From Sacculina carcini (lineage: Eukaryota; Arthropoda; Thecostraca; Sacculinidae), in assembly GCA_916048095.2 (NCBI GenBank), contig OU696570.1, forward strand, positions 9,539,816-9,603,815: a DNA stretch of 64,000 bases, read 5' to 3'. Of this stretch, positions 3,704 through 58,950 are shown in pieces. Position numbers and translations under genes: made by a program. A model generated the notes under the pieces. That model ran no database searches and was not told the DNA's origin. It was given only the letters and a program-made list of their open reading frames with translations. How positions within the stretch are numbered: the stretch's first letter is position 1; every line of letters begins with the position of its first letter.

Positions 3704-4605
3704 GGGGCAAGGGGGATAATGTAAACAAATGTGACAAAGTGGTTAGGCCTTCTACTCAAGCATCCTGGTCTTTTTGAGTGGGCTCACTTCCAGCGAGCGT
3801 GCCAACGACCGTCACTACAATGAAAAACGGCCTGATAGTCCGGTGCATCAATACACATGTCTGATGACGAAGACTGGGCCGGACCACAAAAGCGCACCAC
3901 TGCTGGCGAATGCACCGACACACCACCCAGTGATTCAATGCCGGGCATACCAAGAATCATTCCAAATCCTAGTGGTGGCTTAGGCACCACCAGTCCCAAT
4001 AATTCTGATTTGTGATTCTCATTTGTAACTACTTCAAGCTGACAAACACCGTCACACTTCATCCTCGCTATCCAGGTCTACCCATCCATTATGCTATCCA
4101 GGTCTAAATCATCTGCCCTCGAAACAGCGCGAATCATTTGGCGGAAGTTGTCTGGTAGGCCAGACACAAAGGCGCAACACAATGCATTGTTCATCACACC
4201 ACCAAACAATGTGGAAAATCGCCGCAAGTCAGCCAGATACACGTCGACTGATTCATTCACGCGCAATTTCCTGGCCACGAACGCATCATAGGCAGCATAC
4301 TTATCTATGCCAAATGCGCTGTACAGACGACTGCGCACCGCTTCACTATTTCCTCGGAGTTCAGATGGCATCTCCGACCAGACTGAGAAAGCACCAGTAG
4401 TCAGTCGGAGTGGCACCACTGACTCCACAGGAACACCACGCAATTGGCACATCATCTCTGTACGGAACCAGCATTCCAAGATGTCATTTGTTCCATCGTA
4501 TTCCGGAATTATTCTTACATCGAATGCCAACTGGAATTGCTGAGCAGAATCGACGAGTACTCTACTTTCAGCAAATTCGCTTCCCGAAGATTTGTTGTCC
4601 ATATT

Positions 4606-5076
4606 TGTAATTTCACATTGTTGATCCGAGGCGCCAGAGCGAGCGATGCGCGAGATGTTCGATAAATTGAACGTTTCCTTACATGCCATTCAACGTTTGT
4701 ACGTTTGAGTGTCTGCGTGCACGCGCAGCACTGGTCGCGTTGGCAGACGTCGTGTATGTGCGTGCGCAGTTATGTGTATGTGTGGGTGTGTATGTGTGCG
4801 TGTGTGTGTGCGCGTGCGTGTATACTGTACTGTCTTGGTGACGATGTAGCTGGGGGAGGTATGGGCAGTGTAAAGGGGGTTCGATGACGCATTGAGTCTC
4901 ATGGAGGAGTCGAGATCGAGCGTTCATGATGTGAGTGTGAACGTTGTGCGGAAGCGTTGAGTTACAGTGTACGGCGGTGTGCATAATGAGTGTTGCGTGT
5001 ATTTACTAGGTGTAATATTGTGCGATTGTGTTATATATATTTCATCGTCCATCATCTGTTCTGCAATACAACCACA
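4606..5076 (+). repeat. 5' LTR of the 4606-7305 element
   Basis: 471 bases beginning TGTAATTTCACATTG and ending ACCACA, very rich in TG/GT dinucleotides in its middle. It is matched by 6840-7305. The five bases ATATT before it are repeated after the 3' LTR. Confidence 0.9.
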
Positions 5077-5088
5077 AGCGATTTCGGC
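5077..5088 (+). promoter_or_regulatory. Putative primer-binding site (tRNA-Phe 5'-end complement, one mismatch)
   Basis: AGCGATTTCGGC abuts the LTR end with no spacer. It complements bases 1-12 of animal tRNA-Phe (GCCGAAATAGCT) at 11 of 12 positions. It lacks the TGG that normally pairs with the tRNA CCA end. Confidence 0.55.
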
Positions 5089-6839
5089 CATGTCGGTGCA
5101 CGGTGATGAACCAGGGACCAGCATGGACGTGCGTCTAATTCCGGAGTTCAGTGGATCGGACGCTCAGAATATCACAGAGTGGTTGTACAGATTGGAACTC
5201 GTATGTGAACTTCGAGGCGTGACTGACGTGGCAACCGTCATTGCTGTGCGTCTAGCCGGCGGTGCTTTTGCTGTGTACCAGCAGCTACCAATCTCTGACA
5301 GAAAATGCGTGCAGAAAGTGAAGTCGGCCCTGCAAGCGGCATTTGGAATTGATCCATACACAGCCTACGAGCGGTTTCATGCCCGCACTCTACACCCCAA
5401 CGAGACGCCCGATGTATACTTGGCTGATCTCAAGATATTGGCTTCAGTTTATGGTGGAGTACCTGACATGGCTCTCCGGTGTGCATTTGTTTCGGGTTTG
5501 CCTGCAGAGGTGCGCACAACGTTGCGTGCGAATTCTCGACTTGAGTCGCTGGATCTGCCACAGCTGACAGCTAGGGCTCGCATACTGCTCCAAGAGACCC
5601 AGCACAACGAAGTGTGTCTGGCCGCCAGGGGACCATCAGCAACTCATACAGCACAGCGAGAAATCAAGTGTTTCTGTTGCGGAGGCATTGGTCATATTGG
5701 TTAATGGAAACGACAGCGGAGAGGCGTCGTCAGCGCCGGACTCCTCTCCGAGACAAAACTAGCCAGAACGCTACCGACGGTGAATGTGACCATCGACGGT
5801 GTTGAGCGACGTGCGCTCGTCGACACGGGCTGCAGTCAAAGCATAGCACATGTGTCCTGCTGCAGCAAATGGGCGCGCAAAAAAGTGAGCGTCGTAACCA
5901 TGAGCGGTGAGATATTCTCGACCTTGGGTACGGGCACAGTGACACTCAGTGTTGGTGGTGATTTTGTGCCGAGCCATGAAGTTGTTGTCTCAGAGACAAG
6001 GCCACTGGGGTTTGATTTCATTTTGGGAATGAATGCAATTACGTCTTTGAAAGGCATGTGTATATCTGCCGACGGTCATATCACATTCAATCCATGTGCG
6101 TGCGATTCTGTGACACAGGGCACTCGGATGCCCACTCACACTGCGCTGGGTCTCACCGATGTTAAATGGCATGCTAATAATGAATTACGTGACGCACCGA
6201 TTTGTGCGGCTGGCATAGACAGAAGTCAACTGATTAAGGATACTCATCACGATTCTCGTCACCCAGGCGTAAGAAATACGCTGGTTTTTGCTCGCAAAGC
6301 CGACCCAGGTGTCACCCGTCGCGAGGTGAACGCAGTAGTGCGAAAGTGGGACGAGCGTAACTTTGTAGATTCCGCCCCAGTGAAGTGGAGGAATGGTCAC
6401 TTGAACGTTTAGGACGTGTGGGACAGGACAGGGCGTGTGAGACGCAGTCATTTGCCCGTGAGATGCCAAGACGTCGAACATTGTCCGTTTGTTCTAGGAG
6501 ACCTGGTGTGGGCAAAGCCACCAGATATTCGCTGTTACAGCAAGTATTTGCCCGGCGTCGTGACCAATCACGTGTTGTGATTTCATCGTGTTGTGTCCAA
6601 TCATTCGGTGGATGTTGACAGTGTGCCGCGACATGTTCGTGACCTGCGTAGGCGACATACTCAACCTGAAGTCGCTAAGCAACTGAGTTTAGACGATGAT
6701 GAGCTGATTGTGAGTTTTGGACGAGCCCCGAGGGCCAACGTGGCATCGCGCGACTTCGCACCCGAAGAATCGCCTCGGAGGTCTAATCGACGGCGTGTAG
6801 CCCCTCGGTGTTCTTGTTGCGATGAGCAACAGGGGGGAG

Positions 6840-7305
6840 TGTAATTTCACATTGTTGATCCGAGGCGTCAGAGCGCTCGATGCGCGAGATGTTCGATAAT
6901 TTGAACGTTTCCGTACATGCCATTCAACGTTTGTACGTCTATGTGTCTGTGTGCACGCGCAGCACTGGTCGCGTTGGCAGACGCCGTGTATGTGCGTGTG
7001 CAGTTATGTGTATGTGTGGGTGTGTATGTGTGTGTGTGCGTGCGCGTGCGTGTATACTGTACTGTCTTGGTGACGATGTAGCTGTGTGAAGTATGGGCAG
7101 GGTAAGGGGGGTTCGATGACGCATTGAGTCTCATGGAGGAGTCGAGATCGAGCGTTCATGATGTGAGTGTGAACGTTGCGCGGAAGCGTTGAGTTACAGT
7201 GTACGGCGGTGTGCATGAGTGTTGCGTGTATTTACTAGGTGTGATATTGTGCGATTGTGTTATATATATTTCATCGTCCATCATCTGTTCTGCAATACAA
7301 TTACA
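6840..7305 (+). repeat. 3' LTR of the 4606-7305 element
   Basis: 466 bases starting TGTAATTTCACATTG and ending TTACA, preceded by the purine tract AACAGGGGGGAG and followed by the target duplication ATATT (7306-7310). Confidence 0.9.
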
Positions 7306-7329
7306 ATATTCTCAATTGCCGAAAAAGCT

Positions 7330-25277: not shown

Positions 25278-28200
25278 TTTGGCGACGAGAATTCTGTTGA
25301 CATCAGACCCAAAAAAATGACGTTGCGAAAATGAACATCGAGGGATTGTCGGCACCAGCACCCTTCCTGCCTCGTCCAGGTAACCCAGTGATCACGTGGG
25401 GTGACTGGAGGTACGCCTTCTAAAATTACCTGTTGGCGATGGGGAGTGCAAAGTTCGACTCGCAGCGAAAAAAAGCACTTTTGTTCCATTGCGTTGGAGC
25501 TGAGGCACAGCGCATCTACCGCTCGCTACCACCTACACCAAAACTAGCCGGTGAGAACGATTACGACCACACAATGCGTGTCATTCAAGCGTTTTTCGTT
25601 CCGAAACCAAATGTGATTGCTGAGCGATTCCGATTTCGCCAGCGAAGGCAACATCAGGATGAAGCTACCGCCGCATATGTCGCCGCTCTCAGATCATGCG
25701 CCACTCATTGCAAGTTCGGTGATCTCGAAGACGAATTTATTCGTGACCAAGTGGTCGAGGCCACAAACCAGCCGAAGTTAAGGGAAAAATTCCTACAAGA
25801 CCCAGATCTCACGTTGCAGAAACTGCTGATACAGGCGGAGGCCGTCGAACGCTCGCAAGAAGACGTCAAAGTCATGGCATCAGCTGAACATGCTGCTGCA
25901 TCACCAACCGCACAGGTGAACCGCGTCATGCAACATCCTCAGCACACAAAAAGAGGCGGAGGAGGGACGAACAAGTCTAAATGCAGTCGATGTGGACGCA
26001 TTCACTCACCAGGCACCAGAGAATGTCCAGCTAGAGACAGTAAGTGCAACCATTGCGCAAAAATCGGACATTGGTCTAATGTGTGCAGGTCGAGGAAACC
26101 TGATCATCGATCTAAGGAGGTGAAAGCAGTAGAAATACTATCATGCAGCGCTGAAAAATTCAACAAAAAGAAACTGATGTGCGACATATAACTGTCAACA
26201 AACGGTAAATCAGCTAGTGTACCTATGATGGTAGACACAGGAGCATCGGTGACTCTGATCAGTTTATATGCAGCAAGACGATGTTTCAAAGGAACACCTG
26301 TACAGAAGAGTGAGTCAAAATTGTTCGGAGTATCGGGAAATTCACTTCCGGTGATGGGTACCATCAAGGTCAAGGCCGAACTTCAAGGTCGATCCGCAAT
26401 GAGTGACATCTTCATCATCAAATCGTTATCATCTGATGCATTGATGGGACTTGACCTTATGCACGCGCTGGGTGTCAAAATTGACTTAGCAGCAGGAAAC
26501 ATATTCTCAGTTCAAGAAGGTGGGGACGCGGACAAATTCCTGCCGCCTATAGAGGGATTTCAACACCGAATAGTGCTACGTGCAGATGCTGTTCCGGTCC
26601 GTCGTCCGTTACGCAGACTACCACTCTCGGTTCGTGAAGAGGTGACAGCCGAGTTAGCGGAGCTACAGAGAGCCGGAGTGATCGAGCCCGTTGACACAGC
26701 CGAGTGGATCAGCCATCTGGTCGTCGCCAGACGGAAAAATGGACGAATCAGATTGTGTGTTGACTTAAGAAGTCTCAACCAGCAAATCGTTCCCGATGCT
26801 CATCCTCTTCCGACTATAACTGAACTACAGACCAAACTGCAAGGATCAGTCTTCTCAAAGATTGACCTACAGTCCGCCTATCACCAGCTGATGTTGGAAC
26901 CATCATCGAAACATCTGACGGCGTTCATCACGCCAGACGGTCTCTATCAATTCAAGAGAGTACCGTTTGGTCTTTCATCGGCGGGATCAGCATTCCAAAA
27001 ATTGCTGGATCGTGTCTTTCGAGGTATACCTGGTGTACAACACTACCTAGATGACATCGTGTGCTCGGGACGCATACAGGCAGAACACGACGAACGTCTT
27101 CAGCGCGTGTTATCTGCACTTCGTCAGGTGAAAGTCACCATAAACGACGCAAAGTCCAAATTTTCAGTGCGTGAAATCGATTATTCTGGGTTCCAGATCA
27201 GTGCCAATGGCATAACTCCTCTTCAAAGTCATGTGGAAGCCATTCAACAAGCTCCACCACCACATAATGCTGCTGAACTGAGAAGCTTTCTTGGGTTATG
27301 TGGGTTGTTGTCACACTTTGTGCCAAACTACGCCACCATCACAGGTCCTCTGTTCGCGATGCTCAAAAGAGACGTCGTTTTTGACTGGAACGAGGCAGCC
27401 AACCAGAGTTTCCAGACGGTGAAGAAAGTCATCTGTTCTGACAGAGTGCTGCACAAATTCGATCCTTCGAGATCAACGTTCGTCACAAGCGACGCGAGTG
27501 ATAAAGGAGCAGGCGCGCTCTTATCACAGATGGACGACCGAGGCCAAGAATACGCAATATCATTCTGGAGTCAGCGATTTTCAGCCGCTGAAAGTAAATA
27601 CTCCGTCACAGAGAAAGAGACTTTAGCCGCTGTGCGAGCGGTAGAGCACTGGAGATTGTTTCTGTGGGGTCGCCACTTCACTCTGCGGACGGACCATGCC
27701 GCTCTCAAATCCGTGCTGTCGTCGAAATCGAGCGGTCGCGCAGGAGCACGTGTGTCACGCTGGCAAGCACGACTAATGGTGTTTTCGTTCACAATCCAGC
27801 ACGTTCCAGGGGCCAAGTTGCCCTGTGCTGACGCACTATCGCGGTTGCCGGTCGGAGAACCAGACGAGAACGACGATCCACAAGAAATCATCGCCACGGC
27901 GGTAGCTGGTGAGACCAACATCAGTTTGGATGAGGTGAAAGAGGCCACACGTGAAGACACTCAGCTATGTGCATTACGTGAAGCGATCGAACGTGGATTC
28001 CCGACCAGCGCAAAACAATATGAAGCTGCAATACAGCCATTCTTCTACTTGCGTCACGAATTTAGCGTTGTTGACGGACTCGTGCTACGAGAAGGGTACC
28101 AGGTCATTGTACCGGAGCGACTTCGGGAGCAATGTGTTCAGGCAGCGCATGAGGGTCATTCAGGAATTGTAAAGACCAAACAAATAATACGAAGTGTTGC

Positions 28201-29621: not shown

Positions 29622-29626
29622 TTAGT

Positions 29627-32042: not shown

Positions 32043-32206
32043 AAATTTCCAAAATTATTCGTTTCCTCGACCATTCTCAAGCATGACTATGAAACAATAA
32101 CAACAAAATATGATTAGAACCAATGAAAGGAAATATCTACATTCGAAATTACTCAACATCCATTCATATATATACTCTCATACTATATACAGACATTTCA
32201 TACAAG

Positions 32207-32735: not shown

Positions 32736-32736
32736 G

Positions 32737-33038
32737 TTAGGTGGGTTATGTCAGGCAAGACTTGGTTAGTTTAGGCTCTGTATACCTGTAATGAGGTTCG
32801 GATATAACATGCCTAAATATGTATTATATGTTGGTTAGGTTAGGTTAGGGGTTAGGTTAGGTTAGGTTAACTATAACCTAACATTAACCAAGGTAACCTG
32901 ACTCATAACCTAACCTAACCTTACCCCTAACCTAACCTAACCAACATATAATACATATTTAGTTATGTTATATCCGAACCTCATTACAGGTATACAGAGC
33001 CTAAGCTAACCAAGTCTTGCCTGACATAACCCACCTAA
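32737..33038. repeat. Long foldback repeat with TTAGG-rich inner arms
   Basis: Arms of about 132 bases (32737-32869 and 32907-33038) are inverted copies at about 95% identity, separated by a loop of about 37 bases. Outer arm: TTAGGTGGGTTATGTCAGGC. Inner arm: GTTAGGTTAGG tracts. It directly follows the SINE body. It could be a foldback transposon or a hairpin generated within the TTAGG tract; no target duplication is seen. Confidence 0.85.
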
Positions 33039-33371
33039 CCCAACCAAACATTATCTAACCTAACCTAACAAAGCTAACCTACCCTTCCATGAACTTCACA
33101 TAGCTGATAAAAATTGTCAAAGATAGTCACTCACATAACTCAGTCTCTAGATATGCCACTGTCAGATTCACTCACGGCCTGTAGCATCGTGGCTAACTGT
33201 CGGTGTTCATCGCATCGCAGTAAGCGTTGGATCAGTTGGTACGTTGGTGTAAATGGTCGTAGCCCCAGCACTTAGACTGCTAGATGTTTGGTCCATGTGT
33301 GTGTGTTCTCACCGAGTTGTTCTCACCGAGTTGAATTTACGGGAGATGAGCATGGCTCGAGCTGTCCCGTC
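33039..33371. other. Unassigned sequence
   Basis: TTAGG-complement tracts persist to about 33085. A short direct duplication (TTCTCACCGAGTTG twice, about 33307-33335) is present. No gene is recognised. Confidence 0.4.
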
Positions 33372-39484: not shown

Positions 39485-39806
39485 TGTGGCGTTGTTGTCG
39501 AGTGGCGTGCGGTGTGACGTCATAGCGGTTCACTTGAGCCGAGTGGTGCGAGGTATGACGTCGCACGTTACTACGCGCTGATTGGCCGCGACTTGAGCCT
39601 AGTGCCGGAGGCGTGTATCAGCTGGCGTGTGTGAAGCTGGCTTTGCGAGCGGTCGAGCGTCATTCGGTTGGTGGCCTGTGCGTTATAAGCATCGTTGCCG
39701 TGTTTCGAGATTTTTTCTGCTCGAGTGGACGAATTCTCGTCGTGTGCGCGGGTTACCTGAGCGAAGGTGAGAGGGCTTTGCCCCGTTGTTTCTTTGCTTG
39801 ATCACA
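39485..39806 (+). repeat. 5' LTR of the 39485-44389 element
   Basis: TGTGGCGTTGTTGTCG to GATCACA. It contains TGACGTCA (39515-39522), a CRE-type site, conserved in the 3' LTR. GC content is higher than the surroundings. Confidence 0.93.
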
Positions 39807-39818
39807 AGCTATTTCGGC
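39807..39818 (+). promoter_or_regulatory. Putative primer-binding site, perfect tRNA-Phe 5'-end complement
   Basis: AGCTATTTCGGC directly abuts the LTR CA end and is the exact complement of GCCGAAATAGCT, bases 1-12 of animal tRNA-Phe(GAA). Complementarity stops at the LTR border, as expected if the primer end defines that border. Confidence 0.65.
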
Positions 39819-42800
39819 TATATGGCTGAGGCCGTTGGCGGGGGCAAACATGAGTTTGTCGAAGGGGGTTCCGTTAGCGAATCCGATGACTTCGGTCAGG
39901 AGGGTCAGAGACCCGAGCAGCCACGCTGAAAAGCTGGTGCAGCCACGCTGGTGAAAGCCACGCTGGTCGCCGAGTTTGGCGTGCCTCGCCAAGAGGCGTG
40001 GAGGCGTTTCTCGACTCGTCAGTTTCGATCTGGCGAGTCAGTGGACGCCTTTGTGGACGACCTAGAGCGTCTAGGTCGCCGTGTAGGGTTAACACCCGAG
40101 AGCTTGGCGTTTCGCGTCAAGTTTTATGAGGGCCTACCCGACTCAATCTGTGTGGGCTATGGCGAAAGAGGGGGCGTATACCTCCGAGTTCGACAGCGTG
40201 CTGTCGGCGGTGCGCGCCAGAATTGGTGCGCGTAGGGCTGCTGCAGCCAGAAACCGCCCATCTGGGGTGTTGGCTGCATCTAGGCAGCGAGTCAGCTACG
40301 CTCAAGTAGCGAGCAGCTCGAGGGACCGCTCTCCTGTTACTCAAGCGTCGGACGAGCGAGACGGCTCTGTGTCTCGGTGGGCGGGCCGTCCGGAGCGCTC
40401 TTCTGCGCGCTCTTCTGCACGCTCTTCTGCGCGCCGGACGCTCCGCTGCTACCGATGTGGCGGTAGCAGACCATCTGGTCCGCGAGTGCCCGGGAGCGCA
40501 ATGCTACCGGTGTGGCAAGCACGGGCATTTCGCTCGTGATTGCGAGGAGCCGGCGTCGACGTCGACGTCACGCCGCTCGCGAGCTCGGACGAGCTCGCAT
40601 TTTCATGCGGAGGGCGCAGCACGGGGCAGCGTCCTCCGACATGGAAGTCGACCGCAATTAAGCGGCGGCCCCTGTAAAGGGGCGACGGTGAGTCCCTGCT
40701 CTGCGCGTGGACTCATCAGCGGAGCACATTTGATGCGTCGGGCCCGCCGGGCGATTCGAGGGACGGCCGGTGTATTGACTTCGCGTCGTATGCCGGTCGT
40801 TGAAGCTGTTCTCAACGGTTGTTGCTCCCGGTGTCTGGTTGACACCGGAAGTGAGTGCACAATTGTTAGTGCACGGGTGGTGGCGGGTTCACTTCCCCGT
40901 CGGGGACGACCGTTGATTACAGCGGATGGTAGGACTTCTCATGAGACGAAGTCCTGTGACGTAGTAATAGGGCTGCAGGGACACTGTTTGAGAGTTTCCG
41001 GGCTCGTAGTTAAGGGATTAGAAAACCTTGGGGTGGAGTGCCTCCTGGGCAACGATGTTATTGACCATATGGGAGGCGTGACAGTGAAGAGGGGTGTTGA
41101 CTCTAAATACACCGTTGAGTGGGGGAAACCTTACCCGAGGGGTGCTGTCGTGCACCGGCGCGTAAGTGTGTGTGTCTAATAAATCGACGAAGTGTGTAAG
41201 GTTTATGTTGGCAGGTTCCACGGATAGTCCGCAGCCGCTGGAAGTTGTCGACAAGGACTTCGTAGCGGCATTCGCTGAGGGTCGATGGACGGTGAGCTGG
41301 CGGTGGTGTGACAAAGAGCCGGACCAGCTACAGAACAGCGTGGCGGAGTACAGATGTACGAGAGCTCCCGGAGTGAGCGAGAGGTACAAAGCCGAGATCC
41401 GGAGCTGGATCGAGAAAGGCTGGTTGATCCCATGGCACGGCCCAGTAAAGAGGATCATCCCGCTGTTGGCCGTCGTACAGCCGACGAAAGACAAACTTCG
41501 TCCTGTTATGGATTACCGTGAGCTGAACGGCTTTGTCGAGTGTCACACAGGAGATGACGGTGTGTCAGTGTGTGCTGACAAGATCAGAGAGTGGAGGCAA
41601 TGGCAGGGGGAGATCAAGGTAGTTGATCTCAAGTCGGCGTACCTGCAGATTCACGTGAGCCGAGATCTGTGGAAATATCAGGTCGTGAGGTATAATGGTG
41701 TGTATTATGCGTTGACGCGGCTGGGCTTCGGCCTGTCATGTGCACCAAGAATAATGACGCTGATTCTGCGAAAGGTCCTGTCATTGGACGAGAAGGTGCG
41801 AAAGGCGACAGATCATTATGTCGACGATATCATCGTGAGGACGTCAGATGTGAGCGTGCAGCAGCTTCGGGAGCATCTGCAAAGGTATGGCTTTTAGACT
41901 AAGGAGCCGGAGGGCCTAGATGGGGGTCGATTATTGGGAATTGCTCTGAAGAAGGGACCGGATGGGTGGTTGAATATGTCGAGAGGGACATATCTTCGTG
42001 ACGCTGCACCCGAATTGACAGGGCTGACCAAGCGTGGGTTGTTCTCCGTATGTGGTCGCTTAGTCGGTCATTACCCCGTTGCCGGGTGGTTACGCCCCCA
42101 TTGTAGTTTTTTAAACGGTTGGGGTGTGGCGGGTCGTGGGATAACCCGGTGGAGAATGTTGTGTGTGTGCTTGTGTCTGAGCTGTTGCAGCGTGTTCAGA
42201 AGGCGGACCCGGTAAAGGGTCGATGGGACGTGAACGCAGCTGGAAACGTCACTGTATGGACTGATGCGAGCACGCTGGCGCTTGGCGTGGTGGTCGAGGT
42301 GGACGGCTGTATCGTTGAGGATGCTACTTGGCTCCGTAAGAAGACCGACGTCCTAGACATCAATGTGTCCGAACTGGAGGCAGTCGGTCGTGGCATTGAT
42401 ATGGCGATTCCGTGGGGGTTCAAGACGTTTACCGTCGCGACAGACTCGAGGACAGTGCTTAGTTGGATGGACAGCACTGTCGAGGGGCGCAACCGTGTCC
42501 GCACTAAAGGTTCTGCCGAGATGCTGATGAAGCGCCGACTGGCGGTGATTAAGGAGACGATCCCCGAGCATGGCCTGACAGTTTCTCTCCGGTTCGTCAC
42601 GACTGTGGAGAATAAAGCTGATCAGATGACCAGGGTGGCCAAGAAGTGGCTTGTTCATCGTGACGCTGGTGAGGAGGAGGTGGCAATATCAGCAGCCATT
42701 GCTACGAAGAAGAGCATCAAGGACACCGTTTGGGCGGCTCATCTGCCCCATCATTTAGATGTCGAGAGGACGTTGTACCTGGGTCAACAATTGCGGAGTG

Positions 42801-44067
42801 ATTTGACGAGAGCCCATGTGAAGGCGGAGTTAGCTGGATGCGAGGCTTGTCAACGTATTGATCCAGCGGTGAGAGAGGAGAACCTCGTAGGTCAGGGTAG
42901 TCTGGCCGTGGACAGGGACTGGTATCGAGTGGCAGCGGACGTCACTCATTACGATGCCGGCGTTTACCTGTCGATGGTGGATTGTGGTCCATCACGTCTT
43001 GCCGTATGGCGCAGATTGCCGAATGAGACGGCGTTGTGCATTATAGCTCAGCTGCGGCAGATTTTGATTGAGCGTGGGCCGTTTGAGGAGCTGTTACTGG
43101 ACAACTCGACGGCGTTCCGGTCGGCGGCGATGGAGCAGTTCGCCGACGAGTGGTGCATTTCTTTGCGATTCCGAGCCGCATACGCCCCGGGCGGTAACGG
43201 GATCGTGGAGCGAAATTACCGTACGATCAAAAGGATCGCAGCGAGGGGTCATATTTCCCCGGAGGAGGCGACGTTCTGGTACAACGTTACGCCGCGCAAA
43301 GAAACTCAGGTGAGCACTATTCCCTCGAGATGTATTTTCAGATACGAGTGGCGTCTTCCATTTGAGACCGGCCGCAGGGACGCTGATGACCAGACAGCAG
43401 CGTTTGCCGTTGGTGTCGAGGTGTGGGTGAAACCGCCGATCCCGTCATGTACAACGCCGTGGACCCTCGGGAAGGTGACCAGGGTCGTCTCACAGCACGT
43501 TGTGTGCGTAGATGGCATGCCGCGCCATGTGCGCGACCTGCACAAGCGTCGCTGTGCCGGCCATAGTGGAGCCATAGACGAGACCGGCACTCATGGCGAC
43601 GTGGAACCGACCAGCGGCGGTTGGGATGTGGATGCGACCGGCAATCGCGGAGATGTGGAGCCACCCAGTGGAGCCACCCGGCGTAGCTTGGACCTGAGCG
43701 GTGATGGCGGACGAGACGAGGCGGCCGTTAGTCCCGGCGGTGACAGAACACCTGACAGCCTGCCACCTGAGCGACTGGCTATTGGCGAGGGCGTGGATGC
43801 GGAACGTGTGTCTGTCGAGCAGGAACCTGGAGAGCCCTCAGAGGACGTGAGTGTACATATTGCTCGAGAGAATGTCGGAGAGGGCGTCGCGGCTGAGAGA
43901 GTCGAGGATGAGGCTGCAGTCGAGCAGCCGAGGCGGTCAACGAGGAGACGTCGACAGCCGGCATGGTTAAACGGTATGTGTACGTGTGTCTATCCGATGA
44001 TGAAGTTTAACCGTGCGTGTTTGCAAGCGTGTTTGTTGTGAGCTTTCAGGTGAAAAGCTGGGGGAGA

Positions 44068-44389
44068 TGTGGCGTTGTTGTCGGGTGGCGTGCGGTGTGA
44101 CGTCATAGCGGTTCACTTGAGCCGAGTGGTGCGAGGTATGACGTCGCACGTTACTGCGCGCTGATTGGCCGCGACTTGAGCCTAGTGCCGGAGGCGTGTA
44201 TCAGCTGGCGTGTGTGAAGCTGGCTTTGCGAGCGGTCGAGCGTCATTCGGTTGGGGGCCTGTGCGTTATAAGCATCGTTGCCGTGTTTCGAGATTTTTTC
44301 TGCTCGAGTGGACGAATTCTCGTCGTGTGCGCGGGTTACCTGCGCGAAGGTGAGAGGGTTTTGCCCCCTTGTTTCTATGCTTGATCACA
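44068..44389 (+). repeat. 3' LTR of the 39485-44389 element
   Basis: Matches the 5' LTR at about 98%. It keeps the TGACGTCA site (44098-44105), is preceded by a purine tract and followed by GACCA. Confidence 0.93.
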
Positions 44390-44394
44390 GACCA

Positions 44395-44764
44395 CACATG
44401 TGCTTGTAGTTTTCGTCACATACCAGTCATGTACGTCTACAAAACATTTTTATGCACACTGTTGAAGTGTGAATAGGAACATTTTCAGTTTCTCAGCACA
44501 CAGGAAAACACCAAACAAAAAAAGCGGAAATGAAACATTCAAATTATTGCGAGAACATTATATCAATTTGAACAGTTTTCGACAAATCCAAATGGCCTTG
44601 TCGAGAAGTCTTCCTGCATGTTATTTTTCGATGCAACCATTCTGTTTATTTTTCACCTTCTACTGTTCTTATGTTGAATTGTTTGTCTTTACAGAAATTC
44701 GTCGACGTAACAGATCTACTCATATGAGGTGTTTCTAGCATCTGCTTGAATTTTTCAAGATATA
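44395..44764. other. Unassigned sequence
   Basis: AT-rich sequence with no recognised coding or repeat content. It may include decayed flank of the Polinton fragment that follows. Confidence 0.4.
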
Positions 44765-45060
44765 TCAGTTTGGATGTAGCATAGTTTTATGTTCTCCCAT
44801 CCGGTAATATTAATTCATATGCATAGTTCTTTGCACTCAAGCACACAATTCTTTTATGTATGTTCCTGAGGGATAGCTTTTTATTTTGTTAGTCATTTGG
44901 CCCAAGTTATGCGGCTGAATTGGAAGGTGATCTTTTTTCCGCCGGAATATGACGCTGTCAGTGTCGGTATATATCAAATCATAGCTTGTTATTTTGGCAA
45001 GAAAGTTGTACAGTACAATCCGAGCCTGCGCCGTGACAAAGGCAGCTATTATTATAAACA
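44765..45060 (-). mobile_element. Polinton/Maverick fragment: protein-primed DNA polymerase B palm
   Basis: A minus-strand stretch encodes IIAAFVTAQARIVLYNF, the YTDTDS metal-binding box of family B polymerases (in YDLIYTDTDSVIF), and a downstream KNYAYELILPDG segment, all typical of protein-primed polymerase B of Polintons. No capsid, integrase, protease or terminal repeat is seen nearby. It is a short, old, broken piece, bounded on the right by the 45057 repeat. Confidence 0.75.
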
Positions 45061-45512
45061 TTTTGAGTGGTAAAGATGCAAGTTCAGCGCCACGTGCAAC
45101 AGCGCCACGCACCACTTCTGGGAACCCACCAGAAGCATACGCACAGTATCCTCTGCCCTGGTGACATTGTGTGTCATTGGAGAGTCACTCGTCCTCTGCA
45201 TCTGCAAGCTCTGTGCAAGGACATGGACCCATTTGGAACAAAGTCTATTTGAGATAAAATTCTCATACTCTATCTTTGCCGTCCTAACCTGATCCTCTGC
45301 AAGCGTGCGTATGTGTAATTGTCATGTGTCGCAATAAACAGTCGGTTAACATGTTTACAATAGATAAAAACAAGCTAGCATGCGTGCAGTGGCATGTATC
45401 TTCGCCACAGTATGAATAATTTGAAATGCAGTGTTGAAATATATATGTCATGACGATATGCATTGAAATATATGCTATGATTGAAATCAATCAACAGGTT
45501 TTTTACTGTATT
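45057..45512 (+). repeat. Repeat copy 2, uninterrupted at the hAT site
   Basis: Matches 36840-37242 plus 38488-38533. Where copy 1 has the hAT element, this copy reads ATATATGTCATGACGATATG with no insertion (45444-45463), serving as a paralogous empty site. A further shared piece (GGCAAAATACGACTGGGGCA) lies at about 45542. Confidence 0.85.
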
Positions 45513-45755
45513 GTTAATTTTATATTTCGTACGGTTGAACAGGCAAAATACGACTGGGGCAAGTGGAAAAATGGGGTCGACTGCGCAAATTGGGTAAAAT
45601 ATAAAAATGTAGCGCAGAAAAGAAAGCATGTAGCAATATGAGTCTGGAATATATAACAAAATGCACCAAAGAGAAATAACTGAATCAAAAAGAATTCAAT
45701 ATATGATTTCGTAGACTAAGTGGACTGGTTCAACGCAGGGGACAGATTAGAGGAG

Positions 45756-46230
45756 TGTAATAGGTATTCGTATTGTGTATGTACAGTGTGATGAAATCGT
45801 GTAACCGCGTAGGTGTGTTTGTATGTCTGTATGTATGTGTATGTTCAACTGCGCGAATGGTGTGCCTGCTCTATTCCATGAATGCGAGTTACCGTGTATG
45901 TGCGTGTATATGTCTGCGTGTGCGTATGCGTGTTCATGTGACTTGGCTTGTCACGTGACTCGAGTACTGTGTGCTGATTGGTCGGTGTACTTTGACATTG
46001 TGACGTGTGACGCCTGTGCGTGTGGCTGAAGCGAGCTACAAGCAGTCTGGTTTTGAGCGTTGTGAGTGTTGGTGGTGTTCGTGTGTTGGTGGTGTATTTG
46101 TAATTGTGGTTGGTGCTAGGCCACAAAGTGTTTATTGTTTATTATAAGTTTTGTTTTCAAGAGTGCATTTCAGTGCTATCATTTCATTGTCGTCATCATC
46201 TTCATTGAATACATCTCTATTTACTCTACA
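45756..46230 (+). repeat. Solo LTR
   Basis: 475 bases beginning TGTAATAGGTATTCG and ending TTTACTCTACA, flanked by AGGAG on both sides (45751-45755 and 46231-46235). GT-rich composition and length resemble the LTRs of the 4606-7305 element, but the sequence differs. Orientation is inferred from composition only. It is the product of LTR-LTR recombination; no internal part remains. Confidence 0.75.
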
Positions 46231-46369
46231 AGGAGTAAGATGACAACGAGAAGAACTCTATTGAACCAGAAGTAGTGAGCGTAGATGACAAAATAGTTCA
46301 GTTGAGTTCAATGTATTTGTTATATTGTTGTTTGTTTTTATTGTCGTTTTAAGCGCGCACCAGCCCGAC

Positions 46370-46876
46370 TATATGTCGCGCCCCACTGTAAGCCAATCTA
46401 CAGTGGTGACTCCTGGTATGCTCAAGCGAGGGTGTTGATGAACAAAACCCAGACCAGGATTCGAACTGCGAGAGTTCTGCGCCTAACCACAGCTGCTCGA
46501 GAGCAAAATTTGAATTAGATAATGAATTATCAATGTTTTGAGTTCGTCTGATTATTGGTGATTGAGGTGTTCACAACTTCCTAAATTTATATATGGTACT
46601 GTTTTACTAATTGCATTAGATCAACTTGTTTTTTGTGTGAGCACAGACATCGACAGCGAGGTGAGTGCAAAATTTCGTTTGTTTTGGTTCGTTTTTTTGT
46701 TGTTGTTGATGTTGTTTTGTTGTTGATATTTTTCCAAGCTGATATTACTTTATTTATATAGTTGATATTGCTTTATATTGTTATCTGAGTTTTCTATTAG
46801 TGTTTGGTAATTATTCATGCATATATTTCTTGATAAAGCGCTCATATAAATGATCGTCAAAATTGAAGTAATCTAC
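46370..46876 (-). repeat. Repeat with tRNA-like SINE (copy B, inverted to copy A)
   Basis: Reverse complement of 32207-32735. The SINE part occupies 46503-46370 on the minus strand, with B box AGTTCGAATCC (one change from copy A) and the A-box region AGCTGTGGTTAGGCGC. The repeat breaks off at 46876, exactly where the 3' end of the CR1-like LINE begins, so the LINE may have inserted here. Confidence 0.8.
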
Positions 46877-47290
46877 TTTTTTTTAAGAAAGTTTATTTCA
46901 CACTTGAAACAGAACATGAAGAACATCACACAAAAAAACAGTTGCAAAAATGATATTTTTCAGGGTGTAAGGAAGAATCCTGTCTCAAACACTGAATAAA
47001 TATATAATAATTCTAAATCATGCAGCTAGAAACAATTGTGAAGTAAAGAAAAGAAAAAGTCATCGATTAAATTTTTGATCAACCAAAACAAAAGTAGATC
47101 ATTACAGATCAAATTAATATAAATTGATAACAAAAAATAATAAAAATAAGGAGATGATGAGCCGAGGAAATAAACCGAGCCAAGTACACGTGATATTGTC
47201 ACAATTAACTATCAGCATTGTTGCTATCAGCCATCATTACCATCATCATTGTCAACATTGTCACCATCAACCAGATCACTGAGTCACTAA

Positions 47291-47636
47291 TCAGTAATTT
47301 TCCATAATCAGCTTGTTGGTAACCTGTTTGAGTTTACGTTTAGAAAGAGGAACATTCACGAGAGACGGAATATTTTTGGCAACTAACTGATTCCAGTACT
47401 TGGGTGTCTTGATAAACATGCAATGTTCTTCATAATTGTTATTTACTCTTAGCTCCTCAAAATGATGTTTTTCTCTTAGGTTTCTTGTATTGAGTTTCAA
47501 AATAAAATTGTGAGAAATACATGGGGGAAGTGAATTGGTTAAAAAACTATGCATTAAAACCATACAGTTTGATTTGACGAGATCACGAAATTTTTGTACC
47601 TTATATTTTTTAAAAATTGGGCTTGTATGTGAACCA
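47291..47636 (-). pseudogene. LINE-B ORF2 C-terminus
   Basis: Contains KYKVQKFRDLVKSNCMV, LMHSFLTNSLPPCI and NTRNLREKHHFEELRV followed by KTPKYWNQL, the usual end of CR1/Rex-type ORF2 proteins, and stops at 47291. A 3' tail of about 410 bases follows to 46877. It connects to 53669-54187 on the other side of the LTR element, where the TATGG target duplication lies between the halves. Confidence 0.8.
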
Positions 47637-47641
47637 TATGG

Positions 47642-47909
47642 TGCTAGAGTTGATTAAAGAGTCATCGAGCTACTGTGGTAAAGAGCGCGTGTGCATCGCT
47701 GTGCGATACCGCGTTTCAAGTAACGGCGTCCCCATGAGACAACGTTAGGTGCGATGTCCTTGTCAAGGCCAAAGGCGAGCAGTGTTTGTTCGGTGATCGG
47801 CGGTGATCGTGCGTGCGCTGTCTGTGCGTTGTGATTTGTGTGACATAGTCTGTGTGTGTTACTTGTGTTGTTATTTGTGTGTGTTTATATATATATAGTC
47901 TGTCTTACA
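47642..47909 (+). repeat. 5' LTR of the 47642-53663 element
   Basis: TGCTAGAGTTGATTAAAG to GTCTGTCTTACA. Partner at 53407-53663. Confidence 0.92.
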
Positions 47910-47921
47910 AGCTATTTCGGC
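47910..47921 (+). promoter_or_regulatory. Putative primer-binding site, perfect tRNA-Phe 5'-end complement
   Basis: AGCTATTTCGGC starts at the base after the LTR CA end, identical to the site at 39807-39818 although the two LTRs are unrelated in sequence. Confidence 0.65.
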
Positions 47922-50900
47922 CCATTACGATGGATGAGCTGAAGTTGACAGATTTTGTTGAGAGATACGACGGTAGTGGAGATCTCGACACGTGGGTGGA
48001 GAAACTCAGGTACGCTTGTTCACTGAAGGGCATATATGACGTGGCTAAAGTCATCCAGATATTTTTGTACGGTCGGGCGTTCAATGTGTATAGACAGTTA
48101 TCTGAGAGTGACAAAAAGATAGAGTTGGTCGTTATTGCCTCCCTGCGTCAGTCTTTTGGCTTGACTCCTTGTGCCGCTTTCTCAATGTTCAAGGAGCGAC
48201 AGTGGAAGATTGCTGAGGAGACCTTGGACGAATATATGTCTGATTTGCGTTCGTTGGCTAAATGTGTGGTGGGTGAGAAGAGCGAAAGCTCCCGCTGGGT
48301 TGCTTGTCAATTTCTTTTCGGTTTGCCAACTACAACGGAGAACACGGTGAGAGCCATGCACGGAGCTTCACTTGAGCTTGACAATTACTGAGTTGTGCTA
48401 AGCAGGTGGCTGCTGGCGAAGCAGGTGATACAGATGTTACACACAATGTGCATGCCTATTCCGCCTCCAGTTCAAGGATATTGATATGCTTTGAGTGCCA
48501 ACAAGAGGGTCACATTGCCAGAAATTTCCCAATTCGTAGAAAACGACAGCAAGTGTGCCTCAACTGTGGCGCGTCCGGTCACACTGCAAAGAACTGTCGC
48601 AAGTCGGAAAACTTGCAAGGGGGGCCGGCTCAATCTTCAGCGTAAGAACCTGTCGACCCCCCGATAATTCCAGGTTGTTGATAAAGGTGTGGTGTGATGA
48701 TGTGAAACGACCTATGTCCGTTCTCGTCGACACTGGCAGTACGAACTCCATTGTCATGACGAAATCAATCTTGCGTATGGTACCAGAGCAAAAATGTACT
48801 TTGAACCTGCAGTTGTTGAGTGGTGTAAGCGTTACCGCCAGTAAGAGCTTTATTCTCAAAAATGTTCGATTTTCTTCTGATGGTTGTGTCAAAATCAAAT
48901 CGCTGCGCGTTTGGTTGTGCGATTCTAACTATCGTCCACCGTTTGACATTATTTTCGGTATGGATGCAATATTGGCAGCCGGTGGAATGAATGTTTCGCC
49001 AGATGGCAAAGTGTCGTTTGGTGTGTCAAGTACGGGTGCACCGTGGGGATCTTGTCAGCAAAAGATTCCTTCACTTGATGCTGCAAAACCTCAAGCTGCT
49101 GTGCTGCAGTCGACGCCAAACCACACAGGGACCTCCACATTGGAGATAGTGGATTGTGATTTCAAGGCATTCTTTGACGGGAGGAAGTGGATTGTGAACT
49201 GGTTCTGGGAGAATGAAGTACCCGATAGAAAAATCAATGGTGCGAACTATGCTATTAAGCCGACAGAAAAATCTGCTTTTGAAGCCGAGGTTAATTCGTG
49301 GATCGAGGAAGGTGTACTCATTCCCTACGACGAGAAAATGCATGGTGTCATTGGAGCGAAATTGCCCTTGTTTACAGTCAAACAGGAGAAGAAGGACAAA
49401 ATCAGGCCCGTGCTGGATTATAGGCGATTGAACTGTTATATTCGGAGTGCTCCTGGTATGGATTCGGCAGTGTGTGATGAAAAGCTCCGTAAGTGGAGAC
49501 GCATGGGCAGTGATGTGCCGATAATCGATTTGAAAAAAGCCTATCTCCAGATACATATGGCAACCGAACTACAAAGATATCAAGTGGTGGAATTTATGGG
49601 GAAGCAGTATACCATGACCAGGCTGGGTTTTGGACTATCAATCGGTCCCAAAGTCATGACGGAAATACTGAAAAAAAGTTTTTCTCAAAGCCGATTTTGA
49701 CACCAGTGGAGTTGACTTTTACATCGACGATGTGATAGTGGATAAATATCGTGTAAGACCAGAACAAGTTGTTCAGCATCTGCAAAAATATGGTTTGATC
49801 ACAATAAGTCCTTGCGATCTGAACGGTGCCAGAGTACTCGGACTCAAAGTGGAAACCAAGCCATCTGGAGTGCAGTGGCAACGAGATGGTGATGTTCCCG
49901 TTGTGCCAGATGTTTTGACAAAAAGGTCTGTTTTCATTGTGCGGCAAGTGGATCAGCCACTTTCCTATAGCCGGTTGGCTTCGAGTCGTATGTGGACTAA
50001 TCAAGCGGCGTGCGTCTGAAGGCTTAGAAAACAAGTCGAATGCGCATTGGGATGCAGAAGTAGATGAACATACTGCAATAATTATTAAATCAATCGCCGC
50101 CGACGAACATCGAGATCCGGTACGTGGTTTTTGGTGTGTTGAGGATCGCCGACCCAGGATATGGGTCGATGCCAGTAACATCGCCACTGGCGTTGTTCTT
50201 ACAGTGGATGGAAAACCAGTGGAAGATGGTTGCTGGCTGAGGAAGCCGAACGACTCTTCGCATATTAACGTGGCTGAGTTAGACGCGGCGGTTAAAGGAA
50301 TAAATTTGTGCTTGAAGTGGAGATTCCGAGAAGCTGAGTTGATAACCGATTCGTCTGTCGTTCATGGTTGGCTGTCCAGCGTGGTTCATAATACACATCG
50401 GATTCGAACACACGGCATGTCCGAAATGCTGATCCGCAGACGACTGGATGTAATCCGTGAATTGCTGGCATCGTTTTCACTGGAACTACATGTGAGACAA
50501 GTAGACAGCAAAGAAAACATCGCCGACGCGATGACACGTCCACTCCGTTTCCTGCCGTTACTGTCTTCTGGTTCAACAAGTGGATGTTACGCTCTAACCA
50601 GGGATGAGCGCGAGGTCATACAAGGCATCCACGATAGCAGTGGGCACATGGGTGTACAGCGTACAAAGGAACTCGTTTCAAATGTGTTTCCATCTGTGAG
50701 CTCTATTGAGGTGGACGAGGCGATACGTCATTGCGAATCATGTCGTCGGATAGATCCGGTAAATCGCACAAAGAATCATCATGGCTCACTCAGTGTTCCC
50801 GCCGTATGGAGAAGACTTGCAATAGATATTACGTACTACAACCATGCCGCATACTTGTCCATCATCGACTGCTGTTCTAGGTTTACTATCTGGAGGAAAT

Positions 50901-51109
50901 TGAGCAATGAAAATGCTTCGTCGGTGGTTGCCGCTCTGGAGAGTGTATTCGTTGATTTTGGTCCACCCTGTAGCGTTTTATCCGATAATGCGCCGGTATT
51001 TCTCAGTACTGAGTTCTCCAGCCTTCTGCACGAGTGGGAGGTTTATCATGAAAAGTCGTGTGCATATCGTCATCAAGGAAATGGCATATGTGAACGTGTT
51101 CATCGCACT

Positions 51110-53406: not shown

Positions 53407-53663
53407 TGTTAGAGTTGATTAAAGAGTCAGCAAGCTACTGTGGTAAAGAGCGCGTGTGCATCGCTGTGCGATACCGCGTTTCAAGTAACGGCGTCCCCAT
53501 GAGACAACGTTAGGTGCGATGTCCTTGTCAAGGCCAAAGGCCAGCAGTGTTTGTTCGGTGATCGGCGGTGATCGTGCGTGCGCTGTCTGTGCGTTGTGAT
53601 TTGTGTGACATAGTCTGTGTGTGTTACTATTTGTGTGTGTTTACATATATAGTCTGTCTTACA
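53407..53663 (+). repeat. 3' LTR of the 47642-53663 element
   Basis: TGTTAGAGTTGATTAAAG to GTCTGTCTTACA, preceded by GACTCGGGGGAG and followed by TATGG. Confidence 0.92.
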
Positions 53664-54192: not shown

Positions 54193-54400
54193 TGTGGTAT
54201 ATTTATCGTTCGAACGATAAATATACATTGTGGTATATTTATCGTTCTTGTGTGCGCGTATGAATGACGCGTGTGATGCGAATTGTGTCTGTCTGTTATT
54301 GTCTGGTCATTTCACGCGTGGCTGTATTTTGTCTTGTTAAGCGTTATTATACGATTACTCATGTACGATTACTCTGGATTCTTATTATATAAACGTCTCA
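54193..54400 (+). repeat. 5' LTR with a palindromic outer end
   Basis: A 172-base LTR (54229-54400) is preceded by 36 extra bases that begin with the same TGTGGTATATTTATCGTTC and then turn back as GAACGATAAATATACA, making a perfect hairpin at the outer edge. The target duplication lies outside the extra bases, so they were present at insertion. TATATAAAC lies near the inner end. Confidence 0.9.
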
Positions 54401-54401
54401 A

Positions 54402-54418
54402 TTAACAAGACAAAATAC
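54402..54418 (+). promoter_or_regulatory. Putative self-priming primer-binding site
   Basis: TTAACAAGACAAAATAC starts one base past the LTR. Its exact reverse complement, GTATTTTGTCTTGTTAA, lies inside the LTR at 54324-54340 and again in the 3' LTR. There is no TGG start matching a tRNA CCA end. In Tf1 and sushi-type elements, the start of the element's own RNA anneals to such a site and primes reverse transcription. Confidence 0.65.
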
Positions 54419-56077
54419 CTTGAGAACAATGGAGAAGTATTTGAGATCTGAACGCCTATCAGTCGAACCGAACTCGAATGATTCAACTCAACAGTGGTTA
54501 CACTGGAAGAACACGTTTGATAATTTCATAGATGCTATAAATGCCGATGAAAATCAAAAACTACCGTTGCTTGTGAATTTGGTCAGTCCAGAAGTATATC
54601 GTTTTATCGCCGAATGCTCTAGTTATTCGTCCGCGATTTCCTCGCTTCAGTCGTTGTACGTGAAACGGAAAAATGTAGTATTTTCAAGGCATCAGTTGGC
54701 CGCCCGAAGACAAAGTGGAAATGAAAGCGTTGACCAGTACATCCAAATATTGAAGGAGTTGTCAAAAGACTGTGGTTTTTTAGCAGTTGATGGTGTCACA
54801 TATCGTAGTGAGTATATTCGTGACGCTTTCATTAGAGGCTTACATTCTGATGATATCAGGCAGCGTCTTCTAGAGAAGATTGATCTTGATTTGGAGACTG
54901 CTATTGATCTTGCTAGGTCACTGGAGTTGGCTAGAGTCAATTGCACCCAACTGCAGTCTATGCCTTTATCAGCCGCGGTCATTCCAGTGGCTCGTAATGA
55001 CCAAATCACAGAAACTGAGCATCAGGACGAAGCCGATCAGATTGTTGCAGCAGTCAGGAGAATGGACCGGACACCACCGGGTCGTTCTAATCAATCATGT
55101 TGGTTTTGCGGCGGAGAGCGGCATAATCGGCAGCATTGTCCAGCTCGCAATGCAGTCTGTCGCAAGTGTCAAAAGAGTGGACATTTTGCCAGGGTGTGTC
55201 GTGGAACAAATTCGAAGGTGAACGCGGCGGCGGCAGCGACTAACACGTTAGCGGCGACCACACATGTAGCTGCGGTGCCTGCTGACCTAAAGAAGTCTAC
55301 AATCTATGTTTTACTGGATGAACGACACCTGTTGGACGCGTTATTGGACACGGGAAGTTCGGTGAGTTACATATCTGAAGCTGTTGTATCTCGGTTGAAT
55401 CTCAGGACGCGCTGTTGTGAAGAGAGGGTATCGATGGCTTCCAGCTCGATGGTTTCACAAATAAACAGAATGTGTACGGCAAACCTTCACGTTCGCGGAA
55501 AAACGTACAAATATTTGAAGTTGTTGGTGATGCCTCAGCTTTGTTCTGACGTTATTCTTGGGCATGACTTTCTCAGTAAACATCAATCTGCTGAAATTAA
55601 GTTTGGAGGAGATTTGCCTCCGCTTGTGTGCGGTTTGGCAGCGGTGAAAACAAAGTGTGCACCGCCGCTGTTCAGTAACATGGACGAGAACACTCATTCA
55701 ATCGCCACTAAGTCGCGTAGGTACACTCCGGATGAGAAGAATTTCATCAAGCAGGAAACGCATCGCTTACTGAAGGAAGGAGTGATAGAACCGTCGGTGT
55801 CGCCATGGCGAGCACAGGTCGTGGTCGTTGAAAGTGATCAAAGGAAGAAGAGAATGGTAGTGGATTATTCGCAGACGGTCAATAGATTCACTCGTCCCGA
55901 TGCATATCCTCTACCTAATATTGAAGAAACTGTAGAATCTATAGCACAACATCGATTCTTTAGTACTGTTGATCTGAAAAATGCATACTATCAGGTACCT
56001 ATTGATGAGAATGATAAGCCCTTCACTGCGTTCCAGTCTGGTAATCAACTGTACCAGTTTCGTAGAATTCCATTCGG

Positions 56078-56558
56078 GATTTTTTTTTTAAGAAGAAAGT
56101 TTATTTCACACTCGAACCAGAACAAGAAGAACATCACAAAAAAAACAGTTGCAAAAATGATATTTTCAGGGTGTAAGGAAGAATCCTGTCTCAACCACTG
56201 AATTAATTTATAATAATTCTAAATCATGCAACTAGGAACAATTGTGAAGTAAAGAAAAGAAAAAGTCGTCGTTTCAATTTTTGGTCAACCAAAACAAAAG
56301 TAGATCAATACAGATCAAATTAATAAAAATTAATAACAAAAAATAATAAAAATAAGGAGATGATGAGCCGAGGAAATGAACCGAGCCAAGTACACGTGAT
56401 ATTTTCACAATCAACTATCAACATTGGTGCTATCAGCTATCATTACCATCAACATTGTCAACATTGTCACCATCAACCAGATCACTGAGTCACTAATCAG
56501 TAATTGTCCATAATCAGCTTGTTCGTAACTTGTTTGAGTTTACGTTTAGAAGGAGGAA
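56078..56558 (-). mobile_element. 5'-truncated LINE-B 3' end inserted in the Gypsy element
   Basis: 481 bases match the 3' tail of LINE-B (46877-47360) at roughly 90% or better, from the TTTTTTTTTAAGAA end to GAGTTTACGTTTAGA. The flanks CATTCGG (56071-56077) and CATTTGG (56559-56565) look like a target duplication with one change. Only the tail and the last few codons are present. The same LINE family is therefore both host to and invader of this Gypsy element. Confidence 0.88.
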
Positions 56559-58685: not shown

Positions 58686-58773
58686 AAGTCAGCCGGGGTG
58701 ATTATGGTATATTTATCGTTCTTGTGTGCGCGTATGAATGACGCGTGTGATGCGAAAAGTCAGCCGGGGTGAT
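58686..58773 (+). repeat. 71-bp direct duplication spanning the purine tract and LTR start
   Basis: AAGTCAGCCGGGGTGATT plus the first 50 or so bases of the LTR occur twice (from 58686 and from 58757), so the 3' LTR is preceded by a partial extra copy of its own start. Confidence 0.85.
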
Positions 58774-58945: not shown

Positions 58946-58950
58946 GTCAT

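Follow-up and report, generated by a model that had tools for sequence, protein, structure and literature searches.

The 64,000 nucleotides of the Sacculina carcini genome analysed here (the window: contig OU696570.1 of assembly GCA_916048095.2, positions 9,539,816 to 9,603,815 of the forward strand) carry several long terminal repeat (LTR) retrotransposons, three of which, elements A, B, and C, have borders fixed to the base. Each has an LTR pair of the form TG...CA flanked by 5-bp target-site duplications (TSDs), and in each the primer-binding site (PBS) starts at the first base 3' of the ...ACA closing the 5' LTR (in element C with one change). The 3' LTRs of all three end with ACA directly at the TSD and hold no copy of the PBS. 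Directly after the 5' LTR come 12 bases that exactly complement nucleotides 12 to 1 of a tRNA, which is tRNA-Phe in most of the families sampled and tRNA-Ile(AAU) in others, and this match spans the whole distance from the LTR border to the first tRNA nucleotide. Judging from these sequences, it is very probable that such elements, with their gag, protease (PR), reverse transcriptase (RT), RNase H (RH), and integrase (IN) domains, use the 5' end of a host tRNA to start their minus-strand DNA, a 12-nucleotide fragment of which would be the primer. The three elements comprise the following features:

39485..39806, forward strand: 5' LTR of element A (TGTGGC...ATCACA), 97.8% identity between the two LTRs; element flanked by TSD GACCA
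39807..39818, forward strand: PBS of element A, AGCTATTTCGGC, complement of tRNA-Phe nucleotides 1-12
39822..39929, forward strand: putative start of gag in element A, its ATG 3 nucleotides 3' of the PBS; stop of this frame at 39927
40310..41176, forward strand: piece of element A with a CCHC zinc knuckle (zf-CCHC 29.3 bits, cut-off 20.8)
41166..41897, forward strand: RT piece of element A with YVDD (Pfam RVT_1 29.5 bits, cut-off 29.6)
42107..44038, forward strand: RNase H and integrase piece of element A (RNase_H E 8e-4, rve E 7e-5, both under the curated cut-offs)
44048..44067, forward strand: polypurine tract region of element A, ending GCTGGGGGAGA
44068..44389, forward strand: 3' LTR of element A, its ACA end at the TSD
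47642..47909, forward strand: 5' LTR of element B (TGCTAG...CTTACA), 94% identity between the two LTRs; TSD TATGG
47910..47921, forward strand: PBS of element B, AGCTATTTCGGC
47930..48391, forward strand: gag piece of element B, ATG 8 nucleotides 3' of the PBS
48540..49697, forward strand: RT piece of element B (RVT_1 E 9e-4, under the cut-off), with a DTG protease-like motif seen by eye only
49919..51109, forward strand: RNase H-integrase piece of element B (rve, Integrase_H2C2, and DUF7047 over their cut-offs; RVT_3 E 6e-4, under the cut-off)
53407..53663, forward strand: 3' LTR of element B
4606..5076, forward strand: 5' LTR of element C, 94.5% identity between the two LTRs; TSD ATATT
5077..5088, forward strand: PBS of element C, AGCGATTTCGGC, with one change
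5090..5704, forward strand: gag piece of element C, ATG 1 nucleotide 3' of the PBS
5705..6412, forward strand: aspartic protease piece of element C (gag-asp_proteas 30.8 bits, cut-off 28.2)
6840..7305, forward strand: 3' LTR of element C

All three elements are interrupted or incomplete. Likeness to the integrase of element A picks up again in element B near 52701, and in element C no RT was found, the only further match being to an integrase end at 6461-6655. They are also well separated in sequence (45% RT identity between A and B, 36% gag identity between B and C). The LTR pair, TG...CA ends, short TSD, and polypurine tract expected of Ty3/gypsy-like LTR retrotransposons are present in 3/3 of them, and the domain order gag(CCHC)-PR-RT-RH-IN emerges when pieced together from A (CCHC, RT, RH, IN), B (gag, RT, RH, IN), and C (gag, PR), with RVT_1, RNase H, and, in A, rve scoring under the Pfam cut-offs. 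Matches of the RT to solved structures at E < 0.01 are retroviral-type RTs, and a sequence search of solved structures with the RNase H gave nothing meaningful. Among named proteins, the RT has relatives in Nymphon striatum, Palaemon carinicauda, Plakobranchus ocellatus, and Elysia marginata; none was found when the RT was queried against viral contigs. The 12-mer AGCTATTTCGGC occurs exactly at 39807-39818 and 47910-47921 (both forward) and with one mismatch at 5077-5088 (forward) and 7329-7318 (reverse), and the exact form is found in close relatives of element C (L265-L268 and L270). As six matches with up to two mismatches are present in the window against 3.7 expected, the count of this string there is in itself unsurprising; its significance comes from the position at the LTR border and from the genome-wide numbers.

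The strongest evidence that the site would read tRNA 5' ends is, in our view, its covariation between Phe and Ile in one register. Three members of one family (L301-L303) and one of another (L304) have AGCTAACCGGCC in the place of the PBS after ...TACA, and this is the exact complement of the first 12 nucleotides of tRNA-Ile(AAU), reading GGCCGGTTAGCT on the other strand. In the whole genome (264 Mb in 43 contigs), this Ile-type 12-mer has 391 matches against 19 for the control (with one distant-base restriction, and tRNA genes included). Among the best 100 of these 391, two run on as tRNA-Ile and 98 do not; the latter fall into 14 flank clusters and have ACA directly 5' in 93/98 cases. ARAGORN called a tRNA-Ile(aat) at one of the two gene sites, so that the same genome encodes a tRNA that starts exactly with GGCCGGTTAGCT. 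The Phe and Ile sites share the register from nucleotide 12 to nucleotide 1, and pairing extends to tRNA nucleotides 13-15 in 0/10 representatives. By simple arithmetic, the chance that a random 12-mer coincides with any of about 60 tRNA 5' ends is ~4e-6.

The site was also recovered by searches blind to it. When the 12 positions between ACA and the gag start were left free in two families (A and B), the exact 12-mer was present in 97 of the best 100 of 111 copies of family A, the other three having one change, and in 71/71 copies of family B. A search with the gag protein of element C alone scored 150 matches among 2346 candidates, and 40 of these 150, hand-picked over the identity range before their PBS was seen, were examined as 331-nucleotide stretches around the gag start. 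They fall into 10 groups by crude comparison, two pairs of which look alike. The Phe-type site is exact in 26/40 and has one change in 10/40, half of the latter being copies of one family with AGCTATTTCGTC (L272-L276); the remaining 4/40 carry the exact Ile-type site. Shuffled stretches came within two mismatches of the Phe type in 11/800 cases and closer in 0/800. Thus, in 40/40 a Phe- or Ile-type site follows an LTR-like ...ACA (or a variant of it), and a TGG start, as in the conventional PBS, occurs in 0/40 and likewise in 0/3 of the elements with mapped borders. An earlier note on this DNA had proposed that a 5' fragment of tRNA-Phe with its end near base 12 may prime these elements and that the 12-mer is conserved for its function, and had named as support covariation with tRNA-Phe and the absence of a TGG-type site from intact relatives. 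The last of these holds for the gag-sampled relatives, and covariation has turned up more strongly than asked for, as the Ile-type site within the same genome, alongside a tRNA-Ile(AAU) gene. Of these relatives, 36/40 are within one change of the Phe type. The proposed priming itself gains support, with the cut 12-mer as its probable primer.

Genome-wide, AGCTATTTCGGC has 2021 exact copies (1005+1016) against five (2+3) for the reversed control, a count of 12-mers for which the LTR border is not proven copy by copy. We compared the flanks of 49 sites, 45 of them chosen for holding the 12-mer (all on contig C1) plus the four window sites. In this partly hand-picked sample, the LTRs fall into 20 clusters and the leaders into 18, giving 14 families when merged by either similarity (under looser settings, 48 sites gave 16 LTR clusters and 13 leader clusters). 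With one representative for each of the 14 families, the positions of ACA and the 12-mer carry 1.6-2.0 bits of information, and the value drops from 2.0 to 0.5 bit at the next base; since 11/14 representatives were chosen for the 12-mer, the inside of the site is conditioned and the drop after it is not. The base at which it drops would lie past the first nucleotide of the tRNA. In 345 kb of sequence from the same genome, biased to the Phe type through the choice of sites, the 12-mers that start with AGCTA after ACA comprise 72 of the Phe type, five AGCTATTTCGTC, four of the Ile type, two of one other kind, and the remainder once each. The 5' 12-mers of tRNA Ala, Arg, Cys, Lys, Met, Thr, and Val in these 345 kb are all in tRNA genes among the matches listed. 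Elsewhere, the 15-mer made of ACA and PBS was found in 33 viral-contig stretches and at least 116 prokaryotic ones, against ~480 expected by chance in 257 Gb.

The 3' LTRs that end with ACA at the TSD without the PBS imply that DNA synthesis starts at the base beside the PBS, and hence that the 3' end of the primer pairs with the first base of the PBS, which corresponds to tRNA nucleotide 12. In the mechanism that we envisage, the 5' arm of the tRNA (acceptor strand, U8-A9, and the first three bases of the D stem) would open and form a 12-bp RNA duplex with the PBS, the tRNA would be cut between nucleotides 12 and 13, and the new 3'-OH would be extended into U5. The natural 5' end of the primer would fix the PBS length at 12 nucleotides. 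The primer would be GCCGAAAUAGCU in the Phe families and GGCCGGUUAGCU in the Ile families, in both cases joined to the end of U5. With less certainty, the cutter might be the element's own RT/RNase H, by analogy with what the enzyme of Tf1 does to its own mRNA. To go by the title of a cited reference, an RNA duplex is reportedly cleaved by RNase H. If a tRNA were cut in the manner of Tf1, precisely the layout seen here would result, and a PBS of 12 nucleotides is what a primer whose end is tRNA nucleotide 1 would give. The 12-bp duplexes have calculated energies of -18.7 (Phe) and -23.1 (Ile) kcal/mol, against -10.9 and -11.9 for the crossed pairs, and are thus both stable and specific.

Two captured tRNA pieces bear on the state of the tRNA involved. 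In L006 (reverse strand 1501-1535), nucleotides 38-72 of tRNA-Phe lie at the place that the PBS has in related elements and join the leader via TTTCGGC, seven letters common to the PBS and to the 3' acceptor strand of the tRNA; this locus also holds an inverted copy of the leader. In L007 (reverse strand 1501-1530), nucleotides 38-67 adjoin a 5' LTR-like repeat (1530-1756, 99% identical to 2163-2387 of the reverse strand), after which comes an exact PBS at 1757. Nucleotide 37 of tRNA-Phe is heavily modified and nucleotide 58 is methylated, and such modifications block RT. Both pieces start at nucleotide 38, beside the modified 37, as expected if RT had copied a mature tRNA and stopped there, and L006 has T for A at nucleotide 58. 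These sequences suggest that mature tRNA-Phe may be present in the reverse-transcription complex.

The captured pieces also bear on the rival explanation that survives best, in which the PBS is the same but the primer is a very short 5' tRNA-derived fragment (tRF) made by a host nuclease instead of being cut by an enzyme of the element. Priming by a fragment is known from the half-tRNA of copia (PMC5371799), and 5' tRNA-Phe fragments exist in Drosophila (PMC7038984). Nevertheless, the latter are ~35 nucleotides long, the fragments described in the literature accessible to us exceed 12 nucleotides, and the 3' part of the tRNA in element DNA at L006 and L007 fits an intact or locally cut tRNA. 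We regard a host-made fragment as rather unlikely, though it is the rival to be taken most seriously.

It is much less probable that the 12-mer merely captures the 5' end of the tRNA and that synthesis proceeds from its 3'-CCA end annealed nearby. ATGG does occur soon after the PBS in several families, and element C carries, 20 nucleotides after its PBS (window 5108-5119), the 12-mer GAACCAGGGACC, complementary to nucleotides 45-56 in the T arm of tRNA-Phe. This complement has at least one mismatch in L265-L271 and is absent from the other elements tested, and a random control gave such a match in 6/2000 stretches, including stretches over the site itself; we treat it as probably family-specific or due to chance. 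Against annealing of the 3' end, a downstream start would carry the PBS into the 3' LTR, whereas the 3' LTRs of the window end with ACA at the TSD (3/3), and a downstream match of at least 9 nucleotides to tRNA-Phe nucleotides 13-76 was present in 1/47 elements other than element C (L218, 10 nucleotides), element C being left out of this set. In a scan of 23 elements for extra pairing with the same part of tRNA-Phe, the longest downstream matches were 12 and 10 nucleotides versus up to 8-9 for tRNA-Ile, -Cys, and -Lys, and upstream matches were not above the controls; the tRNA-Ile control started one base early and lacked the discriminator base, which affects that control only.

Self-priming in the manner of Tf1, which has zero spacer between LTR and PBS, or of sushi is extremely improbable. 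The PBS would then pair with the 5' terminus of the transcript from the same element, which would start with GCCGAAATAGCT, and a PBS of 11-12 nucleotides without TGG beside the LTR is indeed what Tf1 and Tj1 have (PMC7175516; PMC4600332). However, the longest complement to the own PBS in the LTR, or in up to 450 nucleotides upstream, was 4-6 nucleotides in 25 elements, not above shuffled sequences, and on this ground the hypothesis was rejected; instead, the exact matches of both the Phe 12-mer and its Ile variant are to tRNA 5' ends. We give as little credit to the idea that the 12-mer is some other conserved signal (packaging, translation, or promoter) resembling tRNA-Phe by chance, since, despite lying just 5' of the gag ATG in several families, it covaries, with its register unchanged, to the 5' end of tRNA-Ile, with the low chance probability given above, and no TGG-type site is found at the border of the three border-mapped elements.

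Several points weigh against priming from a tRNA 5' end. All the evidence comes from the DNA sequence of one genome, in which the Ile type is known from 5' flanks without LTR pairs and the copies of family A lie partly in duplicated blocks of contig C35, copies within a family not being independent. The RNase H domains score under the Pfam cut-offs, and tRFs usually measure 16-35 nucleotides (PMC7515703), so that a 12-nucleotide 5' fragment would be shorter. One family (L272-L276) has AGCTATTTCGTC in 5/5 sampled copies, with a mismatch at C2 of tRNA-Phe and no better tRNA recognised, which possibly reflects a different tRNA isodecoder, or else a primer 5' end at which mismatches are tolerated. 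L006 and L007 were found by tRNA-Phe queries and alone are no proof of tRNA-Phe specificity. Finally, no tRNA-Phe gene was found in the genome sequence searched, where a missing gene and a divergent one are indistinguishable. A 73-nucleotide tRNA-Phe query, in a search that skips very common words, gave only two partial matches, and patterns for its 5' half and for the anticodon region gave none, turning up tRNA-Cys genes instead. A T-arm pattern retrieved 20 sites, namely L006, L007, and 18 others off by two or three letters, and 15/15 sites with GCCGAAATAGCTC were not tRNA genes. The tRNA family search scored only 63 of 15013 candidates, so it does not count all tRNA genes; several other tRNAs, unlike tRNA-Phe, have genes that were found in this genome. 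How the tRNA-Phe of this species begins, a premise of the earlier note, is taken from indirect sources: the arthropod start GCCGAAATAGCTC comes from a Drosophila northern probe (PMC6542536), and the captured 3' part in L006, ending with TTTCGGC, offers a second basis for it.

Other parts of the window contain a fourth candidate site and a conventional PBS:

7318..7329, reverse strand: PBS-like AGCTTTTTCGGC of an older element D, with one change
4090..4527, reverse strand: gag of element D, 48% identical to the gag of element C
25280..25296, forward strand: TGG-type PBS TGGCGACGAGAATTCTG of the element at 25025-29623, 2 nucleotides after ...CTACA

Element C (4606-7305) is inserted between the PBS and the gag of element D. 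The earlier note had counted four elements with the 12-mer at the LTR end, which stands for A and B (exact) and for C (one change); the LTR of D is unconfirmed by a second copy and ends with ATA, not ACA. In yet another LTR element (54227-58955), the 5' LTR ends with TTAACA; the AGACAAAATACC that comes next is not of the TGG type and is not a recognised tRNA 5' complement either. Apart from these elements, the window contains an array of diverged longer repeats rich in TTAGG-like GTTAGGTTAGGT units (2296-3590), a hairpin with 134-nucleotide arms, 97% complementary, and a 36-nucleotide loop (32736-33039), and, beside this hairpin, one copy of a long inverted repeat (32204-32681 and 46409-46878, 14 kb apart).

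A survey of plant elements lists three types of primer, namely complete mature tRNA, half-tRNA cut in the anticodon stem, and self-primer (PMC6317226), and a 5'-terminal tRNA dodecamer fits none of them. We found no description of such a site in the open-access literature. By analogy with Tf1, we tentatively suggest, with rather less confidence than in the use of the tRNA 5' end as such, a fourth class, in which the element RNase H would cut an intact host tRNA in trans after nucleotide 12, the tRNA being chosen (Phe or Ile) and the 12-nucleotide PBS being set by its first base. With related RTs in sea spiders, shrimps, and sea slugs, this could characterise an entire animal clade of elements. 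Priming by a tRNA 5' dodecamer would bridge half-tRNA priming and the self-priming of Tf1, would account for elements scored as lacking a PBS by TGG searches, and would make it simple to assay RT-RNase H for the ability to cleave RNA-RNA duplexes in trans.

Among known systems, conventional Ty3/gypsy-type elements such as the one at 25025-29623 share with those described here the LTRs, the gag and pol genes, and the short TSD; they differ by their TGG-type PBS, which in that element does not directly adjoin the LTR. Most Skipper elements of dictyostelids likewise lack a TGG PBS, but they have a polypyrimidine stretch for which the source names no primer (PMC5006619). FunCo1 of fungi has an 11-nucleotide PBS matching tRNA-Lys away from its 3' end; however, it belongs to the copia group and uses an internal region rather than the 5' terminus (PMC5445492). 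In half-tRNA elements (copia, Ty5, and the plant Osser, Bryco, and Bianca) a tRNA fragment primes, as proposed here, instead of the 3'-CCA end (PMC5371799, PMC6317226), but their cut is in the anticodon stem (PMC6317226), whereas here nucleotides 1-12 pair and the cut would fall in the D stem. The fission yeast Ty3/gypsy elements Tf1, Tf2, and Tj1 have a similarly short PBS beside the LTR, of 11 nucleotides in Tf1 and 12 here. Tf1 takes its primer from the 5' terminus of an RNA, cutting its own mRNA between bases 11 and 12, where the duplex ends (PMC7175516). That RNA is its own transcript, whereas here host tRNAs match and the LTR is devoid of a complement to the PBS. Having the idea of a fragment in common with copia and the short 5'-terminal duplex in common with Tf1, the priming proposed for the Sacculina elements would thus be related to kinds already known.

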